Shown piece after piece: positions 1,278 to 16,473 of a stretch of DNA of 43,957 bases. The DNA lies in contig JAJQEA010000194.1 in NCBI GenBank assembly GCA_021201905.1, positions 1 to 43,957 on the forward strand, in the 5' to 3' direction. Origin of the DNA: Clostridia bacterium. GTDB taxonomy: Bacteria; Bacillota; Clostridia; Lachnospirales; Lachnospiraceae. Below the pieces are notes generated by a model. That model was not told where the DNA came from, made no database searches, and saw only the letters and a list, made by a program, of their open reading frames with translations. Position 1 is the stretch's first letter. Each line of letters begins with the position of its first letter. The translations under genes were made by a program, and so were the position numbers.

Positions 1278-4200
1278 TCATACTTCCTTTTTCCTGTGGC
1301 TGAAGGCAATATATAGTCCTGTCACCAGTGAGGAAATCATGGCTATCAGATAATAGCTGCGCGGGCCTTCCCCTGTCTTTGGCAGCGGAGCCAGCGGAAC
1401 ATCCTCGTCTAAAATTGTCATAAGGTCTGAATCGTCCGGCCATTGCGCCACGGGCACCTGATCCGGTTCTATACTTACGGTTGTTCCCGGTCCGCCCGAA
1501 GGATCATATCTGTTTGAACCTCCTCCGGACCCGCCAGTTCCGCCCGAACCGCCGGAGCCTCCCCCCAGGCGTTTCCGTACCACCTCCGGGTGTTTCCGTA
1601 CTGCCTCCGGACGGCGGGCCAGCAGGCTCGTGATTATCATACAAAACATCTGTCTGTTGTCCCGAAGAAACAGATACTGACACCGTATCGCCTTCCTTGC
1701 CGTTTACCCGCACTTCATAGCTGAAATTGTCTCCGTTAATGGGAGTGCCCTCTGAATCCGCTACTTCCGTGACCGTATACTCTCCTACAGGAAGAGGAAT
1801 CACCACGCTGTTTTCAGTACCATCCGGTGTATAATACAGGTGGATAACCTGCGGGATTCCTTCCCAGGATTCACCCTTTTCATTATAGTACCTGCTTCCG
1901 TTCCGGACTGTAAAATAAAACTCTTCCGCACCTTGCTGGGAGACATCCCCTCCGGTCACCTCCTTTGTTATCTTCAGGCTTCCCTGGTTCTTAACATTTT
2001 CAAAGGTGAATGGGATCCCTGTGTTTTCCACAATCAGTACTCCAGCCGGTATGTTTTCAGCCCCCTTATCGCCGGGTATAATGAAATATCTTCCGTCTGC
2101 CTTTTGATACTCCTCCGGCACAGTTGTTTCATCCAGATAATAGAGCTGTCCTTTCACAAGACCCTGTATCAGGGCGCTGTATGACGTTCCCTGCTCTCCC
2201 TTCTCCGGTTTATAAGTGCCAACTGGTTCCAAATCGCCGTCTACCTGGTCCGCTTTATACAGCGTAAATTCGGCGCCATCCAAAGGCTGGCCTGACTGGT
2301 CTACCTTATAGATCCTGATCGAAAAATCACCCGTTCCGGTTGCATACGGCTTTACAATCTTGACATTCTCCTCCACCGTATCCTTGATTGACTCAGAGGA
2401 GCTGTAAAAGAGCTGCGCTGTATTCCTGGTGTTGATTGTGGTATTCACGGCTCCATTGAGCATAACCCTGTATTCAATCCTGATTGGCGTCTCATCCGGC
2501 AAATTGGAAATCTCAAACGTTCTTTCACCGATATGGATTACGGCCTCCTGAATCAAAGCCCCTGTTTTGTCATTGATGACCTTAAAGCTGTCCGGAAGAT
2601 ACATCATCTTGTCATTTCCCAGGGTATCCTTCACAGTCAGGGTAGTACTGCTTATGTCAGCCCCCGGCTTATTCACCAGTATGGTGTATACGACGGACGG
2701 AGCAGTGGAGCCACTGTATTCCATTCCCTTTTCCAGGAAGCCCTTATTGATGCTTGTTTTGGCCGAAACCTGGTAAAGTGCTGTATCATCAATGAACATC
2801 TGCGCTTTATTTTCAAAATCTTTGATGGTAAGGCTTGTTATTTTTGTAGTCACATTCAGGTTGACATGTTTATCCATGTCATACCCGGAAAAGTTTTCCG
2901 CAACTTTATTGAGGTGGATGGTCACTTTCTGGACGTCGCCATCCATTACCACCGTATAATCTCCATTTTGCTCGCTCAGGGTATAGTTCATGTTCTTGAA
3001 CTTTATGCTTTCCAGGACCATCCCCTGGGGAATGGTTTCCACAATATCAACCTTCTCGAATTTACTCAGCTTCTGAGGAGCGCTCCCGTTACCGTAACCC
3101 TTATTAATTTCCAGGGTCCATACCACCTTGCCGTTTTTATTATCGGTCTGGGCCACACTCTTGGACAGGTAATCATCAATATAATATGGCTGCGTAGACC
3201 ACCTGGTCCATGTTGAACCCTGAATGGTCAGTTTTGCCGTATTCTTGAATCGCAGATTGTCTGCCGCCACCCTGCTGAAATCAGCAAACGCACTGGCTTC
3301 CACGCGGGAATCATACTCTATGGTGACAGGTCCTTTCACTGCCTGGTTGAATGTCACGGTAAACCCGCGTTTTCCAAGGGTATTGTCAAGAGCCAGCTCA
3401 TAGACCCCCTCAGCCGGACTTATCTCCTTTCCATTTCCATCCTTAAGTACAAAACTGCTTTTGAGTGTATCCAGGCTGCCAAAAGTATGCTTATTCAGAT
3501 ACTTATTCACTTCCCCAGCATTCCATTGGAGGACTGTCAGTTCATCACTATATACGGCGTCTTTAGGTATCACCGCAGTTTCTGAATCTGTAACCCCGTT
3601 TGAATAAGGCGTAAGGACGGACTGCCAGCGGATGGTGCCAAATTCCTCTCCCCATCCAATGACACCAGGTATGTTCTGGTTCGTCGGCTCCTGACTGTTT
3701 TCTTTCATATCACTGCTGAGGTTCTTTTTAGCCAGTGTATAAGTATTATAGAGAAAGCCTATCTGAGTACCTCCTCCTACACCCGGATAGCCGCTTCCCT
3801 CCGGTGCAATCATCTGGATTTCATTGTTCAGGTTACTGCCCTTGGGCTCATTGACTGTAGTATAATATTTAAAGTCATAGAAATAATTACCCGGTTCAGG
3901 TATCTTCCACTCCCAGGTTTTCGCTTTCTGGGATCCGGATTCTTTATCTGTTTCTATTGTCCAGGCGTTTATTTCTTGGCCGCCGTTGCCACTTTTATCA
4001 TAAGCAGTCACTGATACCTGTCCCAAATACTCCTGTCCATCCTGTCCGGAACTGTTGAGATCCAGTGTATCTTTTACCGTCCATCCGGTAAGGTTAAGCA
4101 AATTAGGGTTCACGTATACATGATATTCTATGAAAACCGGTATTACTTTCCCGCCTTCGTCTATCTGCTCATTATAGTGTGTAATACCGCTTTTGGTGAC

Positions 4201-7200
4201 AATGGAGACCGTATGGCTAAAGGATGAATCCGCGCTCCCGGAAGCCCCTTCGGTGCTTGTGACGGTAACCTTATTGCTGAAGCTGAGATTCAGGGATGCG
4301 CTTACGTTCGTGCCATCTTTATCAGCCTCCTTGGTTTTTCCCCATGCTCCCGGTTCGATGTTCATCCAGTAGTTAAGCACCACTTTCTCACCGGTTTTCA
4401 TGCTGGCAGGATTGCCGCTCGCATCCAGCAGCTTAATAAACATCTTTGTTCCATTTCCACCTTCAGGCGTTTCAAACTCGGCCTTTGCTATGGCGCTCTC
4501 TTGGGATACCGATTCCAACGTGATGCCGGTTTTCGTATCAAACGATATAACATCCTTCTTATTATCGTTGAACTTATCCGAAATCTGTATACCAGTCAGG
4601 TCCATGGTGTTATCTTTTCCAGCCTCGATTGTCACATGGAAGCGCACTGCCTCAGGTATGCCCATTGGTGAATAGCGTACATCCCCGCTCTTTTCCTGGT
4701 CAGAATCAGCCCATTTGTTGTTATTATGGCTTTTCTTCACAGAAACGGAATGTTTCTGCACAACAGGAACCTTGTCAAATACTAGTGTCTTATCAAGCTC
4801 TCCCTGATGGATTACAATTTCTGTCTTATCTTTATTTTCACCGGTAAAATCCACGCTTCCTCTTACTCCGGCTGTTCCTTTAAACTTCTGCCCCACCTGT
4901 GACTGGGTAATACTTATCTTGATGGTGCCGTCTTTTGCAATACTGGCGTTTCCGATGATTCCGCCTGACGCGTCCTTTACCTCAAAGCCCGCCGCATCGT
5001 ACAGTATATTGACAGGAAACTTGTATACAAAGCAGTCACCCGCCTTCACAATATAGTCCTTCAGATTTGGATCCGCGCCATTTTCCATTGCATAGGATAT
5101 TTCAAACCATGTCCTTATATCCCTCGGAAGCGGTTTTCCATCTGCAAGCGTAATCCTGGTCACACCATTTTCGTCCGTTGTCTCCAGGATATCCAACTCC
5201 TGGTTATTCTTATCGCATACGGTAAGAATGGGATATCCGGCATCCATCAGCCCCTCTTTCTCAATATCAAATTCCCTGGCAGCATCCCCGGTTTCTCCAA
5301 AAAATACCGGTGAGAATGTGGTAAAATGGCTGGTAACACAGCTCAGCTCATCGATTGCCTGACCTGCCGGAATCTCCCTATGGCTGTCCTGCATAATCTC
5401 CACTGATTCATCCTGGTCCTTAACCCACAGAACCTGGGCCGCTTCGGACTGCTGGCTCAGCTTCTCCATAAGACTTCCTGAAAAGCTCACCTTTACCTGA
5501 CCGTTTCGGTTCCATTCCTCACTGTCCAGCTTCTCATTCCCCTGCCAAAGATTAATGTCGTATGCAGGCGCCGCTATGATTGCCTGGCCCTGCTCCCCGA
5601 CCTTCTCCTTGATGACATCCTCTACCTGGTTTGTGACGATTTCTACTGTGGCATACATCCCCCACGGAAGGACGCCCGAATCGGCTGATATGGTGATGTC
5701 CATTCCATCGCTCATTTGAAATGTCTTAAAAAACTCCGGCGGCTCCCCCAACTCTGCCATGGTAATTTCTATCTTCTGGTCCTCCTCAATATTCTCAAGG
5801 ACGTACCATGTGATACCATTTTCCACGCTCTCTGACTCCAGCTCACTGCCATTTGCCGCTGCTGACTCCACCATGTATCCTTCTTCTGCTTTGACTCCGA
5901 AGGTTATGCTTTCCCCCTCAGCCACACTGCGTGGGCCCTTCTGCACGGTTCCTTCTGACTCAGGCGAAATCTCATATGTTATCTTATAGCCTTCCACATC
6001 TTCCAGCACCTTCAATTTGCCGAGTGTGGTGATATAGGCTTTCGCCGTACTGCATCCGCCTATTCCCACCAAATCCCCATAACCTATGCTGGGCGTGGTG
6101 TCCTCCTGGTGTTCCGGTTCAGATGGAGTAGCCGTCATCTCCTCTGATGAGGATGGCGTCTCCGCCGGTGTTTCCGGTACAGTGGTTTCAGGCACCGTTG
6201 TCTCAGGCATGGTTGTCTCAGGCATCGAAGCATCCGGCATAGTAGTATCCGGCATCGAAGCATCCGGTGCAGACGTATCCGGCATGTTATCCCCAGAAGT
6301 ACTATCCTGGGGAGAGCTCTCCTGGGAAGAACTCTCCTGGGCAGCGCCATCCTCGCTTTCAGGAACAGAGGATTCCGGCTCGTCTGAAGGCAGGGCATCC
6401 TCCGTACCGGATTCCTGATCCGCCGCGGACTGTCCGTTATAGCCGGATTCCTCCCTTGATAATGTCATATCGTTATCAGCCAGCATCCCCTCTGCCGCCC
6501 CTTCAGTCGATGTGATATCAGCTGTCACTTTGTTATCTGCATTTGCAGAATGGGTATTATCCTTCCCGGCAGCTTCCGCGTCCTCCTGGTTTACAGCCAC
6601 CCTTGGCGCTTCATGCGCGGAACGCGCGGCTACCGGTTCTGAGATCTGCACTTCGCTGTCATTTTCGCGGTCTGAATCCGGAGTATCCTGTTCTGCCTCT
6701 GGTGCATCTGCTTTTTCTGGTGCATCCTCGTTTTCTGGTGTATCGGCTGCCTCTGGTGTATCGGCGTTTTCTGGGGTATCTGCTTCCTCTGATGCATCGG
6801 TGTTTTCTGATGTATCAGCGTTTTCTGTGATATCTGTTTTTTCTGTGGTATCCGCCGCTTCTGTGCCGGACTGTACCGCATCCCCGGTCACATCCTCAAT
6901 TTCATCAGTCCCTGTACCGGAAAGCTGCGCATCCTCAGTCTCTTTTATTTCCGTTTCTTCCGCGGCCCTTGTTTCCTGCTTACTGCCAGATGATACGACA
7001 GGCGCTCCATAATCAATCCTGTTATTGCTAAATGCATGTTCATAATCCTTGACACTGACCCGCTTTGTCCGCTTTTCAGTGCCGTCCGACAGCTCAATCA
7101 CGGTCGAAAATCCCATGGTGCTGTCCCCGTTATTGATATAGAGGATTACAATTTCCTCCTCGCCGGTAAGCGTGTATCCATCGTCCGTACCCTCCGGCAG

Positions 7201-7524
7201 ACGGATAAAAGTACGGATTTCCGCTTCCATACCCAGTCCGTCAAACTCCGGATAAAATTCATACAACGGATCCTGTCCATCCAAAAAAAGCTGGTAATAT
7301 TTTTCCAGTTTTCCATCTGTAAAATTCAAATCCGCCTCTGTCACAGGTTGGGCCCCGCCTCTTATCATCTCTTCTATGGCACCTGCAAAATCAGACCCCT
7401 TTATGATAAAATCCGCATTCTCTCCACTGGCAGCATACGCAATATCCGCGCTGTTCCACACATTTGTGAGGGACAGGGCTGCTGTCAGGCAAAGCGCTAT
7501 AATTCTCTTCCCAATACTTTTCAT
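1278..7524 (-). CDS. Giant Cna_B/SpaA-type LPXTG surface protein, frameshifted near the C-terminus (ORF 1504-7524 plus anchor ORF in 1278-1649)
   Basis: Signal peptide MKSIGKRIIALCLTAALSLTNVWNSADIAYAA; low-complexity Glu/Asp/Thr/Pro repeats; isopeptide-type repeats; SpaA/Cna_B-like DFSIRIYKVDQSGQPLDGAEFTLYKA; C-terminal PLPKTGEGPRSYYLIAMISSLVTGLYIAFSHRKKEV in another frame. RBS TAGGAGG upstream of ATG 7524. Confidence 0.88.
6180..6285 (-). repeat. Degenerate 15-bp coding minisatellite (xMPxTT/VPETT units) in the adhesin
   Basis: gttgtctcaggcatg-like units; protein DASMPDTTMPDASMPETTMPETTVPETTVPETP. Confidence 0.8.
6690..6870 (-). repeat. Degenerate 18-bp coding minisatellite (ADTPEN/ADTSEN units) in the adhesin
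   Basis: tctggtgtatcggctgcc-like units; protein ENADTSENTDASEEADTPENADTPEAADTPENEDAPEKADAPEA. Confidence 0.8.
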
Positions 7525-7632: not shown

Positions 7633-8142
7633 TCAATGTATTTCTATCATCTGCATCATCCGTATCAGCTCCATCCCACTCCTGAAGCTGACAATTTCAC
7701 CCTTGGTAAGCCTTCCCCTGATACTCCCCTGCAGGCTGGAATTCTGTCTGTACTTCACATAGACCACAAGCACTTCACGGGCTTTTAGGGCATTTTGAAA
7801 GGGTATCTCATTGATGCTGTATACCAGATTGTTCCGATCCACCTCCGGATGCTGGGAAACGGCTATTCTGTATTTTTTTTCCATTTCCGTGTTCAAAAAG
7901 CGGGGCTCGGTTGTCCGCTGGGGGGCGCCTACCCATTCGCATATATCATCCAGCTTCAGCACCATGTCCCCCACCCCGCAAAACCGCACGGAATCCTTCA
8001 GGTAGCAGTTATACATCTCACCATACAGACCGCCTTCACCAACCCCTTGTACACATACCATCACTGTACTTGCTCTGTCAGATACTACTAATTCTTCTAT
8101 GCGTTTAATGGCCTCTTTATCCTGTGTCATCATATTGCTCAT
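7633..8142 (-). CDS. Hypothetical protein, 169 aa, between the invertible segment and the adhesin gene
   Basis: ORF with RBS-like AAGGGGAAC upstream of ATG 8142; C-terminal VVYVKYRQNSSLQGSIRGRLTKGEIVSFRSGMELIRMMQ; no function recognised. Confidence 0.7.
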   Translation of the reverse strand: MSNMMTQDKEAIKRIEELVVSDRASTVMVCVQGVGEGGLYGEMYNCYLKDSVRFCGVGDMVLKLDDICEWVGAPQRTTEPRFLNTEMEKKYRIAVSQHPEVDRNNLVYSINEIPFQNALKAREVLVVYVKYRQNSSLQGSIRGRLTKGEIVSFRSGMELIRMMQMIEIH

Positions 8143-8182: not shown

Positions 8183-8210
8183 TACAACAGAATACCTCTT
8201 TTGTTGTAAA
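8183..8210. repeat. Left 28-bp inverted repeat of the putative invertible element
   Basis: tacaacagaatacctcttttgttgtaaa; perfect reverse complement of 8431-8458; itself a dyad (tacaaca N12-14 tgttgta). Confidence 0.95.
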
Positions 8211-8430
8211 GGAACGTCTGTTTTCCCGTTGGATACAGAAAAAGTTTTGCGATTCTCCGTAAATAAACGCTTTTTAACGCGCGGCAAACAAGCTGGCAAA
8301 ATCAGGGGTTGACCAGCTTGTTTGTCATGCCTGTCCTTCTCTTAAAAGGCCTTTAAATACTGGTATCTCCACATTTTTATGGCATTTGCGTTGAATATGT
8401 AGTATAATAAATCCGAAAGTTATGCTGCTG
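8211..8430. promoter_or_regulatory. Putative invertible promoter segment (220 bp between inverted repeats)
   Basis: Flanked by perfect 28-bp inverted repeats next to a tyrosine recombinase gene; contains ATGGCA (8379-8384), 18-bp spacer, TATAAT (8403-8408) reading rightward on the plus strand. Confidence 0.8.
8285..8324. repeat. 12-bp perfect inverted repeat inside the invertible segment
   Basis: caaacaagctgg (8285-8296) / ccagcttgtttg (8313-8324), 16-nt loop. Confidence 0.85.
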
Positions 8431-8458
8431 TTTACAACAAAAGAGGTATTCTGTTGTA
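8431..8458. repeat. Right 28-bp inverted repeat; overlaps the recombinase 3' end
   Basis: tttacaacaaaagaggtattctgttgta; reverse complement of 8183-8210; recombinase stop TAA lies at 8434-8432. Confidence 0.95.
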
Positions 8459-9304
8459 TCGGCCTACCAACAAGTCCATTTTCTCTAATTGTCTGATGTG
8501 GTTTTCCCCGCTTTCCATTGTATATATCCTGGTTGTATTGACACTGCTGTGTCCAAGTATGTCCGCCAGCCTTACCAGGTCCTGTTCCTGGCTGTAATAC
8601 ACCCGCGCAAACAGATGCCGGAGGTTATGGGGAAATACTTTATCCAGATTCACACCTGCTTTTATGGCTGTTTTTTTCATCTCCCGCCATATATTGCTCC
8701 TGTCCATGGGCCTGCCGCTTCGGGTAATGAAGATCATCCCGGATTTTATGCCTTTTTCCCTGGCATATTCCCACAAAAGCCTGCATAACCCGTCTGTCAG
8801 GTAAATGGTCCTCACCTTTCCTTTACAGTCCACCTCTGCCACCTGCCGTTCTACCGCGGATACGGTAATATAGTTGAGTTCAGATATACGGATTCCCGTA
8901 GCACAGACCGTCTGAAGCAGCAGGCACAGCCGTTCATTGCCTTCCTTCCTGGCCGCCGCCACAAGTCTTGTATAATCTTCCCGTGACAGTTCCCTCTGCT
9001 TTGGGCAGAATACCCTCTGCTTTACTTTTATATATCTGGCTGTACACTCATCCCATCCACAGTGCCGGAAGAACCCGTTCAGGGCTGCCAAAGCGCCATT
9101 GGCTGTGACAGGTGACAAGCTTTTTCTCAGTTCTTCTTTCCACAGGATTACCATTTCCTTGGTTACTGCGCTTCCTCTCAGGTACTCCTTAAAAAGGTTC
9201 AGATAGTAATTGTATTTTTTTATGGTTCCTGCGCTCAATTCATTTTGGTACAGAAAACGGCAGTAGTCCTCAATCAGTACACATGAAATAACTTTTTTTT
9301 GCAT
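8432..9304 (-). CDS. Tyrosine recombinase/integrase (XerC/D-like, site-specific invertase candidate)
   Basis: Starts MQKKVISCVLIEDYCRFLYQNELSAGTIKKYNYYLNLFKEYL (core-binding domain); ATGIRISELNYI...HNLRHLFARVYY...LADILGHSSVNTTRIYTM catalytic R...HxxR...H...Y motifs. Longer ORF extends to 9424. Confidence 0.9.
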   Translation of the reverse strand: MQKKVISCVLIEDYCRFLYQNELSAGTIKKYNYYLNLFKEYLRGSAVTKEMVILWKEELRKSLSPVTANGALAALNGFFRHCGWDECTARYIKVKQRVFCPKQRELSREDYTRLVAAARKEGNERLCLLLQTVCATGIRISELNYITVSAVERQVAEVDCKGKVRTIYLTDGLCRLLWEYAREKGIKSGMIFITRSGRPMDRSNIWREMKKTAIKAGVNLDKVFPHNLRHLFARVYYSQEQDLVRLADILGHSSVNTTRIYTMESGENHIRQLEKMDLLVGRYNRIPLLL

Positions 9305-11979: not shown

Positions 11980-12235
11980 AAATTTATATTTACGGCCACA
12001 GTCCGGTTTGTCCGGTTTCCTTGCCGGTTCGTGCAGTTCCACCATACTGATGAAACTGTAATAGATTTCAATGCGCTGTGTCAATACTCGTAACAAATAA
12101 GAGGTCGCCCGGTTTTAATTTTTTAATCAGCCTTTGATAAGCTGGGCGGTTGAAGTCCTTCCCTCTCACCTTATCCAGAAAGATATGGTCTTTTTGGATA
12201 CCGGCTGTCCGCCACGAATATATTAACCGTCTATG
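11980..12235 (-). pseudogene. Remnant of a serine recombinase: N-terminal catalytic fragment joined out of frame to a DUF4368-like tail
   Basis: Frame 1 IQKDHIFLDKVRGKDFNRPAYQRLIKKLKPGDLLFVTSID then stop; shifted frame LTQRIEIYYSFISMVELHEPARKPDKPDCGRKYKFDI to stop. Confidence 0.55.
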
Positions 12236-12532
12236 TAACCAGCGGTGATAGGGAACATATCCTGAAACAGCAGCGCAGTTCTCCTGTCCTGAATGACAAA
12301 TCCTGATGGAGTCAGTCGGCTTGCTCCGTTCTTTTTTCTGCGCCAAAATCCTCTCGAATTTTTCTATTTTTGAACTGCACAGAACAAGCCAGTAGAGGGA
12401 AGTTTCCGCGTCCTGAAAGGCAAAATAGTGGGGCTGTTTCGTAGTGTCATAATTGATTTTAAGATAAGGGTCGCTCACCTTTTGAAAGAAGCTGTCACTA
12501 ACAAAATAGATGTTCCCCGCAACGATTTCCAT
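12236..12532 (-). pseudogene. Type III toxin (CptN/ToxN-like) N-terminal fragment, fused in frame to the resolvase remnant
   Basis: MEIVAGNIYFVSDSFFQKVSDPYLKINYDTTKQPHYFAFQDAETSLYWLVLCSSKIEKFERILAQKKERSKPTDSI resembles the CptN endoribonuclease N-terminus; then breaks off into resolvase sequence. Confidence 0.5.
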
Positions 12533-14055: not shown

Positions 14056-16473
14056 CTATTCATCTATTGATTGTAATTTCTCCAGATATTCTTTGACTTT
14101 CTTTGAATTATCTAGAGCTGCATAATAAACGGCCATTTTTTGATACGATTGCTTTAAGTACGGATGTTTTGAGTTTATCTTTTCTAAAATAGTGATATCC
14201 AACACCTGAAATTCAATGGCCTTTTCATAACTGGATTTACGAAAAAAGACGGTGGCGATATTATTATAAGTCTGCGATAAGTCCATATGGTTCTCATTTT
14301 CAAATTTATTACGAATATTCAGTGCTCTCAAATGGTACTCAAGGGCCGCGTCCAATTCTCCGTTGTCACATAGAATCATAGCCATATTATTATAAAGGGT
14401 GGCGAAATCCTGATGGTTATCAGGTATTCTGCCTTTATACATAGTTTCCGCCTGAAGATAGCAGTCGAAGGCCTTTTCGTGTTCTCCATTATAGTAGTGT
14501 GTCAGTCCTAAATTGTTATAGACAGAAGCCATATCCAGGAAGGATGAGTGCTGCTTATATATTTCAAGGGCCTTTTCTCCATATTGAATGGCCGAAGAAA
14601 ATTCTTCGAGATCATCATAGTTGGTGGCAATGTCACGATAGATATCTGCCATTAATGTTGTTTGGACATATTCAGAGGCTTCACACCCTTGCATAGCTTT
14701 TTTATAGAGCTGCTCGGATCTTTTGAAGTGACCAAAGCAATTTTCTATTGTTGCCTGAATACAGAAAATAGAAAATATATTTTTATTATTATTTGAATAA
14801 GTTTTTGCTAATATTTTATAAGCTTTATCCAACAAAACCATTGCTTCAGATAATTTACCGGTATAGTAATACGCTTGTCCCACAGAGATGCAAAGTAATC
14901 CTATTTTAGCGCTGGTGCTTTTTGAAAAATAATTCAGCGTAAATTCCGCAAAAGGTAACAAATTATTGTAATCCATAATGCTTGTACTTTCATTGCTTGC
15001 CAAATGCCTGATAAAATAATCAATGATATTTTTACAGTCATTTAATGTGATCCTGCAACTGCTTTTGATTACTTCTTTTATCACATGGTGCATAAAGAAA
15101 CCATTATCGGTTTTCTTTAGCCAGGCATACTTTGTTAAACGGATAAACAGATTCATATTAGACAGATTAAACCATCTATAGATATCTGCAGGGACGGGCA
15201 TATTGGGAAAAATTGATAAGACCTTTAATACCTTAAGCTCATCTTTGTCCAGGCTAGAAATATCAAAAACATATTTCAGATGATCGATAACAGTCGCTTC
15301 TCTAACCACCTCATCTCTGTGGGTAATTTGTGCCACGGCTTCTGACAAATTGAACCCGTCATTTTCCAACTTATTAAATATATCCATAGGAGATAATCCA
15401 TCCTGCAAGGAAACCTTGGCGATTGCCTCAATCGTAAGTGTATGAAATCCAGACAACTCTACAATCTTTTTTACATTTTCTCTTTCTTCGTCTGATTCTA
15501 GTTTCCGATAATAATTTTCGAACAGTTCTATACATTTAGATTCATTTAAAAAATCAAGATCATATACGCTGAATGATCCTAGCCGCCGAATTCTGGATGT
15601 GCAAATTACTTTACATCGGAAGCTGTCAAGAATGTGGAGATTCTGGTCATCCGCCTCCGTCACATTGACGTTATCCACAAATAAAAAGGCAGTTTCTTTG
15701 ATTTCTTCCCACAAAAATAATAGCAACCGGTCTAAACGTTCACTATATGGACAGTCGCTGCTGAAAATAGGAAAATAAAACTGCTCCACTAAATCATTGA
15801 GTAAATTTCCTTTGTAATTGACCCATGCCAGTTGGCTGATGATCTCCCTGTCATAGAACAACTCCCGGCACAGAGCGGTCTTTCCTATGCCGCCCATGCC
15901 GTTAACAATAACAATTTTGCTTTTTTCATTGAGCATTACAAGAATATTCTTTAAATCGTTTTCCCTCCCGACAAGTTGTTCCTGTATCTTAGGAGCATAG
16001 CGGGTTAAAATGCGGGGAGACTGTATTTTTTTTGTATTCCCGTCCTCTTGAATTAGAATGCGTTTAAGCATTTGATGGTTTTCCGACAGTTCAACATCAG
16101 CTCTCATGGAAATGATCTTTTTTGAATACTCTGCAGTTTGTAAAAGATAAAAAAATAATCGGGAAAAGAAATATGAATTTTCTTTTTCAGCCGATTCTAT
16201 ATCTGCATCCATAAGAATTTGATGCAGACTTATTTCCAATTCCCGTGCGCCCTCAGATGTGTTTAACGCATGTTTAAACGCATCTTGCAGCCGGGGCTTT
16301 TTTGAATTTACCAATTTAGCGGAGAATTCTTTGCTTATGTCTCTATTCTCTTTGCAGTCCTCTATAGCTTTTTTAAAAGCTCTGGAATATGAAAATCTTG
16401 CAGTTAAATGCCCCTTTGCTTTGACAAACAGCTCAAAAGAATCCTTTAGTATTCCATAAATATCAAATAACAT
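14056..16473 (-). CDS. STAND NTPase: NB-ARC-like domain plus C-terminal TPR repeats, unknown N-terminal domain
   Basis: Walker A VNGMGGIGKTALCRELF; Walker B-like AFLFVDNVNV; sensor-like VICTSRIRR; winged-helix-like region; TPR arrays (AIQYGEKALEIYKQHS...ASVYNNLGLTHYYNGEHEKAFDCYLQAE...ATLYNNMAMILCDNGELDAALEYHLRAL). Confidence 0.85.
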   Translation of the reverse strand: MLFDIYGILKDSFELFVKAKGHLTARFSYSRAFKKAIEDCKENRDISKEFSAKLVNSKKPRLQDAFKHALNTSEGARELEISLHQILMDADIESAEKENSYFFSRLFFYLLQTAEYSKKIISMRADVELSENHQMLKRILIQEDGNTKKIQSPRILTRYAPKIQEQLVGRENDLKNILVMLNEKSKIVIVNGMGGIGKTALCRELFYDREIISQLAWVNYKGNLLNDLVEQFYFPIFSSDCPYSERLDRLLLFLWEEIKETAFLFVDNVNVTEADDQNLHILDSFRCKVICTSRIRRLGSFSVYDLDFLNESKCIELFENYYRKLESDEERENVKKIVELSGFHTLTIEAIAKVSLQDGLSPMDIFNKLENDGFNLSEAVAQITHRDEVVREATVIDHLKYVFDISSLDKDELKVLKVLSIFPNMPVPADIYRWFNLSNMNLFIRLTKYAWLKKTDNGFFMHHVIKEVIKSSCRITLNDCKNIIDYFIRHLASNESTSIMDYNNLLPFAEFTLNYFSKSTSAKIGLLCISVGQAYYYTGKLSEAMVLLDKAYKILAKTYSNNNKNIFSIFCIQATIENCFGHFKRSEQLYKKAMQGCEASEYVQTTLMADIYRDIATNYDDLEEFSSAIQYGEKALEIYKQHSSFLDMASVYNNLGLTHYYNGEHEKAFDCYLQAETMYKGRIPDNHQDFATLYNNMAMILCDNGELDAALEYHLRALNIRNKFENENHMDLSQTYNNIATVFFRKSSYEKAIEFQVLDITILEKINSKHPYLKQSYQKMAVYYAALDNSKKVKEYLEKLQSIDE

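Follow-up and report, generated by a model that had tools for sequence, protein, structure and literature searches.

We report a 220-bp DNA segment that is very probably an ON/OFF invertible-promoter switch, captured in its OFF orientation in the assembly at hand. The segment is bounded by two 28-bp inverted-repeat arms and sits between a tyrosine recombinase gene and a 169-aa ORF, which is itself followed by the gene for a giant surface protein (Table 1). The window, that is, the whole stretch of DNA analysed (43,957 nt, contig JAJQEA010000194.1), comes from a gut Enterocloster-type bacterium, in which the switch is probably flipped by the neighbouring recombinase. The initial annotation had proposed an ON/OFF phase-variation cassette at this place, and the proposal has now gained comparative support from opposite orientations, a conserved promoter, the patterns of the arms, and an arm type that follows the recombinase tree.

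In the mechanism that we favor, the recombinase would recombine the two arms and thereby flip the segment between them. In the OFF orientation, the promoter would fire rightwards, antisense into the recombinase 3′ end. Neither the 169-aa ORF nor the giant gene would then be served by it. In the ON orientation, the inverted promoter would read leftwards into the 169-aa ORF and probably also into the giant gene 108 bp further on, while a hairpin in the center of the segment would probably block read-through both ways. We infer that it is this recombinase that does the flipping and that the 169-aa ORF and the giant gene lie on a shared transcript; the promoter and the hairpin are predictions, which presumably act as proposed.

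Table 1. Features of the putative switch locus and of the genes around it (positions in the window)
Feature	Positions	Strand	Description and evidence
Out-of-frame 3′ end of giant gene	1278..1649	-	LPKTG sorting signal and membrane anchor; frame check; in frame in L063
Giant secreted surface protein, SpaA domain	1504..7524	-	2006 codons open; Pfam SpaA 1.4e-09; frame broken near 3′ end
169-aa ORF, first gene past the switch	7633..8142	-	Unnamed two-repeat domain family; homologues, neighbours, fusions
Left inverted-repeat arm, presumed crossover site	8183..8210	.	TACAACAGAATACCTCTTTTGTTGTAAA; 28/28 to right arm; homologous pairs at sister loci
Presumed invertible segment, 220 bp	8211..8430	.	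Opposite orientation in [Clostridium] clostridioforme AGR2157; segment comparison and six-locus alignment
Central hairpin, nearly symmetrical on both strands	8279..8330	.	RNA fold -23.9 and -28.0 kcal/mol
Promoter-like ATGGCA-N18-TATAAT	8379..8408	+	Sequence scan, 10/12 consensus bases
Right inverted-repeat arm	8431..8458	.	Contains final recombinase codons and stop codon 8432-8434
Tyrosine recombinase, presumed invertase	8432..9304	-	290 aa from ATG 9304; Pfam Phage_integrase 2.7e-26 and SAM-like domain

Repeat arms and the adjacent recombinase gene

As initially annotated, the two arms are exact reverse complements of each other over their full length. They form the sole strong inverted repeat of such kind in the window, and when the window was simulated 60 times with a first-order Markov model, the longest perfect inverted repeat at such spacing measured 13 bp. 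The dyad symmetry ascribed to each arm is also present, in imperfect form, with TACAACA and TGTTGTA flanking an asymmetric core. At sister loci, the two arms of a pair are identical or nearly so inside each locus, whereas the cores vary among loci (variants include AATACCTC, AATCCCTC and AATTCCTC, among others), a pattern to be expected where the two copies are homogenized by recombination.

The tyrosine recombinase that had been recognized next to the repeats is complete. Its likely start is the ATG given in Table 1, the listed 330-aa ORF beginning upstream of it; the expected active-site residues R139, K163, H226, R229, H252 and Y261, assigned from motif positions, are all present, and the nearest solved structures are XerC/XerD/XerA-like. 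The stop codon of the gene falls inside the right arm, a feature missed in the initial annotation, and because the arm thus lies within the coding end, inversion would leave the recombinase protein unchanged at this locus. At most loci, the arm either overlaps the end of the recombinase reading frame or follows shortly after it; at several, the stop codon lies inside the segment, so that the tail of the recombinase would change with orientation.

The tie between arms and recombinase extends well beyond the window. Within the genus, an arm pair was found near the recombinase 3′ end in 26 of 31 related loci, and none elsewhere in the 102 kb of these loci. Family-wide, a pair lies at the recombinase 3′ end in 19 of 28 loci and nowhere else in their 88 kb, at least three of the loci lacking a pair being truncated by contig ends. 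Three arm types could be distinguished (TACAAC, ACCACAGAAT and CATAAT), and their distribution follows the recombinase tree, requiring 3 changes where shuffles require 12.4. One genome of the same family (G142) encodes 12 related recombinases at several places, which suggests that many such switches may coexist in one cell.

One may ask whether the arms take part in any inversion at all: they could be stems of terminators, ends of a miniature transposon or remnants of an attachment site. Both arms are dyads with a terminator-like score, and arms at the 3′ end of an integrase gene resemble phage attachment sites. However, the asymmetric cores agree within pairs and differ among loci, orientation differs among sister species (see below), and the pair is associated with the 3′ end of the recombinase gene, with no target duplication evident in the arm flanks in the window, so that we regard a locus without inversion as extremely improbable. 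A miniature transposon or an attachment remnant in particular was rejected on the grounds of segment divergence, placement and lack of target duplication.

Promoter, hairpin and orientation of the segment

The ATGGCA-18-TATAAT element reported earlier is present within the segment, but it lies on the plus strand and faces the recombinase 3′ end. Since it is thus directed away from the 169-aa ORF and the adhesin gene, both on the minus strand, this assembly would represent the OFF orientation, a state that follows from the strand of the promoter and that the initial annotation did not state. By coordinate arithmetic, inversion would move the promoter to minus-strand positions 8262-8233, some 85 nt ahead of the 169-aa ORF, with its -10 element at 8238-8233 and a 5′ leader of about 85 nt. 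When six segments are aligned in one sense, TGGCA and ATATGTAGTATAATA are invariant, and the predicted promoter is among the best conserved parts of the segment in these six loci.

That the OFF promoter points into the recombinase 3′ end could also mean that the recombinase is the main output of the switch, the OFF promoter making antisense RNA against it and the effects on the adhesin being secondary. The loci at which the recombinase tail would vary with orientation fit such a scheme, as does the fimE mRNA of E. coli, which is affected by the orientation of the fim switch (discussed in PMC2784873). Nevertheless, the position of the stop codon within the arm leaves the protein unaltered here, and the genes downstream of the cassettes are repeatedly surface, capsule or signalling genes; we therefore hold this explanation to be very unlikely.

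The central hairpin has a z-score of about -3 in the window and is stronger in two sister loci (L063 and L065, z -6.5 and -8.2). It may be a two-way terminator or an insulator, the terminator role being uncertain because the copy in the window is without a strong U-tract; a search of the window against Rfam returned nothing. Another possibility is that inversion is real and that transcription comes from outside the segment, for instance by read-through from the recombinase gene, orientation serving mainly to make or break a terminator. The cwpV switch of C. difficile, whose arms measure 21 bp and whose segment measures 195 bp, operates on this principle (PMC2784873), and in the window, too, a strong hairpin lies inside the segment and a recombinase transcript must run into it. 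However, since the hairpin is nearly symmetrical and central, inversion would change it little, and a conserved promoter-like element is found inside the segment, whereas that of cwpV has none. Judged by sequence, the segment neither lacks an internal promoter nor carries a terminator confined to the OFF orientation, and we consider a switch of the cwpV kind unlikely.

For an invertible promoter, one would look for both orientations among relatives, as the initial annotation had suggested, and opposite orientations were indeed found, between species or loci. The cassette, consisting of the recombinase, the arms and usually the 169-aa ORF, recurs in several sister genomes. In [Clostridium] clostridioforme AGR2157, a genome of the same genus, the segment (L065, L124) runs opposite to those of L063, L064, L066, L067 and the window, its match to the L063 segment being an inverted one of 142 bp at 80%, and the promoter faces the 169-aa ORF. 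Likewise, the segment of L144 matches those of L131 and L145 in the opposite orientation, and TTGATT-17-TATAAT occurs in opposite sense in L134 and L147, a match of the promoter only. An opposite-sense match between L007 and L008 covers 48 bp of the hairpin region and is weak evidence, since this region is near-palindromic. A scan of IMG/VR with the arm pattern, seeking other orientations, gave no match. From the sister genomes, both states appear to exist in nature, between species or loci.

The 169-aa ORF and the genes controlled by the switch

The first gene past the switch, the 169-aa ORF, has a plausible ribosome-binding site ahead of its start at 8142. The cassette with this ORF had been thought possibly undescribed, and the domain family of the ORF is indeed so: nothing significant was found in Pfam, NCBIfam, PHROGs, PADLOC or PDB sequence searches, and IMG/VR yielded one 12-residue match only. 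However, the ORF is no orphan, for the family is widespread and linked to adhesin genes, BTAD regulators and EAL proteins. A profile search over 292 good-quality genomes of the bacterial family found a member in 45. Giant surface proteins and BTAD regulators recur next to the domain (L061, L110, L115, L120, L113, L031). At L109:7281-9098 (minus strand), upstream of an LPXTG giant protein, a single polypeptide joins the domain to a BTAD regulator that also gives a weak GGDEF match; in two other loci (L071 and L072), a family member adjoins GGDEF-EAL proteins. In another genus, a fusion of the 169-aa domain with EAL (L105:6905-9346) is the first gene after a recombinase-arm cassette, and this fusion is a candidate phase-variable c-di-GMP phosphodiesterase.

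Two AlphaFold2 models of the 169-aa ORF reached pLDDT 75.5 and 81.6, the latter consisting of two similar hairpin-strand-helix units, and fold comparisons of the models gave no convincing match (best Z 3.5, Foldseek E above 0.2). A reading of the ORF as a PilZ domain, from an NxSxxG-like motif, was rejected because the stretch beyond the motif is too short and no family matched. From its neighbours and fusions, the 169-aa ORF may be a regulator or a signalling partner. Going further, and only tentatively, it is possible that the ORF exemplifies a signalling domain not described before, through which c-di-GMP or BTAD-type regulation is coupled to the giant surface proteins of Lachnospiraceae; the switch would then make a regulator, and not the adhesin alone, phase-variable, and cassettes of this one family would govern modules for capsule, adhesin and c-di-GMP, each genome having several separate switches.

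The next gene along was described as encoding a giant adhesin, and a large secreted protein with a SpaA domain is indeed encoded there, but this assembly shows a break of its frame close to the 3′ end. The LPKTG signal, which in one frame with the SpaA domain would mark an LPXTG-anchored SpaA/Cna_B-type surface protein, lies in another frame. The break falls in a G-run within a Gly-rich stretch and is either an assembly error or real, possibly reflecting slippage; the copy in a sister species (L063) is intact. The distance of 108 bp between the 169-aa ORF and the giant gene is conserved with L063, and this gap could hold a promoter of the giant gene's own.

What follows the switch differs among loci, some of the assignments resting on sequence likeness among loci rather than on a separate scan of each. 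C. clostridioforme has no giant gene after the 169-aa ORF. The cassettes of L064, L066 and L067 precede Cna_B giant proteins with a BTAD regulator, and those of L068, L069, L073 and L025 precede repeat-rich giants of the choline-binding type. On another contig of the same assembly (C369, locus L028), a related arm pair lies ahead of Wzz/Wze-like capsule genes; an in-frame TAG occurs within the matched part of the recombinase of this locus, whose N-terminus may be defective. Two further genes of the window may be mentioned, both on the minus strand. The protein encoded at 12068-12532 resembles the CptIN type III toxin family at a level below the cut-off (NCBIfam 1.5e-22), and no direct-repeat antitoxin RNA was found near it. 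At 14056-16473 lies the gene for a NB-ARC/STAND-type ATPase with TPR repeats, which may function in signalling or defence.

Relation to known switches and significance

Invertible promoters flipped by tyrosine recombinases are well established, fimS being an example, and the general kind of switch is already known, Clostridia included. The locus very probably belongs among them, of the fimS or inverton type, by its repeats, its internal promoter (as read from sequence), its complete recombinase and the occurrence of both orientations between species or loci. It resembles fimS of E. coli with FimB/FimE in having short inverted repeats, an internal promoter, a nearby tyrosine recombinase and an adhesin presumably under control; here, however, there is one recombinase and not two, the arm overlaps the recombinase coding end, and a regulator-like gene comes first. 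With cwpV/RecV of C. difficile (PMC2784873) it shares a clostridial host, a short segment, a giant cell-wall protein and a XerC/D-type recombinase, but the cwpV segment is without a promoter and its recombinase is encoded elsewhere. The pdcB switch of C. difficile (PMC9286219) is an invertible promoter before a c-di-GMP phosphodiesterase, to be compared with the L105 cassette, which precedes the EAL fusion described above.

Closest in kind may be the invertons of group 139 in a survey of a defined gut community (Microbiome 2025, PMC11892184), whose passages on this group give 32 of 33 members as coming from Clostridia and tie them to invertase group 35. One of them, from Clostridium sp. D5, has 26-bp arms and a 205-bp spacer, and reads show it to flip, with shifts in orientation over passages. 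Our cassettes are likewise clostridial and adjacent to a tyrosine recombinase, and the D5 geometry is that of locus L070; an arm inside the recombinase gene and the 169-aa domain family are both absent from the passages on group 139 in that survey. A search for Enterocloster together with invertons found no paper in the literature collection covered. A cassette family built into the end of a recombinase gene and tied to a signalling-linked domain is largely undescribed, the less expected features being the arm within the gene end and an undescribed domain family standing first under the control of the switch.

Taken as a whole, the comparisons are evidence that gut Lachnospiraceae carry a family of self-contained promoter switches, present in several copies in a genome, which differ in arm type and stand ahead of surface, capsule or signalling genes. 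The unnamed 169-aa domain, repeatedly found beside giant surface proteins and fused to regulatory domains, merits functional study. Cell-to-cell variation of the surface in these little-studied commensals becomes testable, each locus requiring a single recombinase and a single 276-bp fragment.
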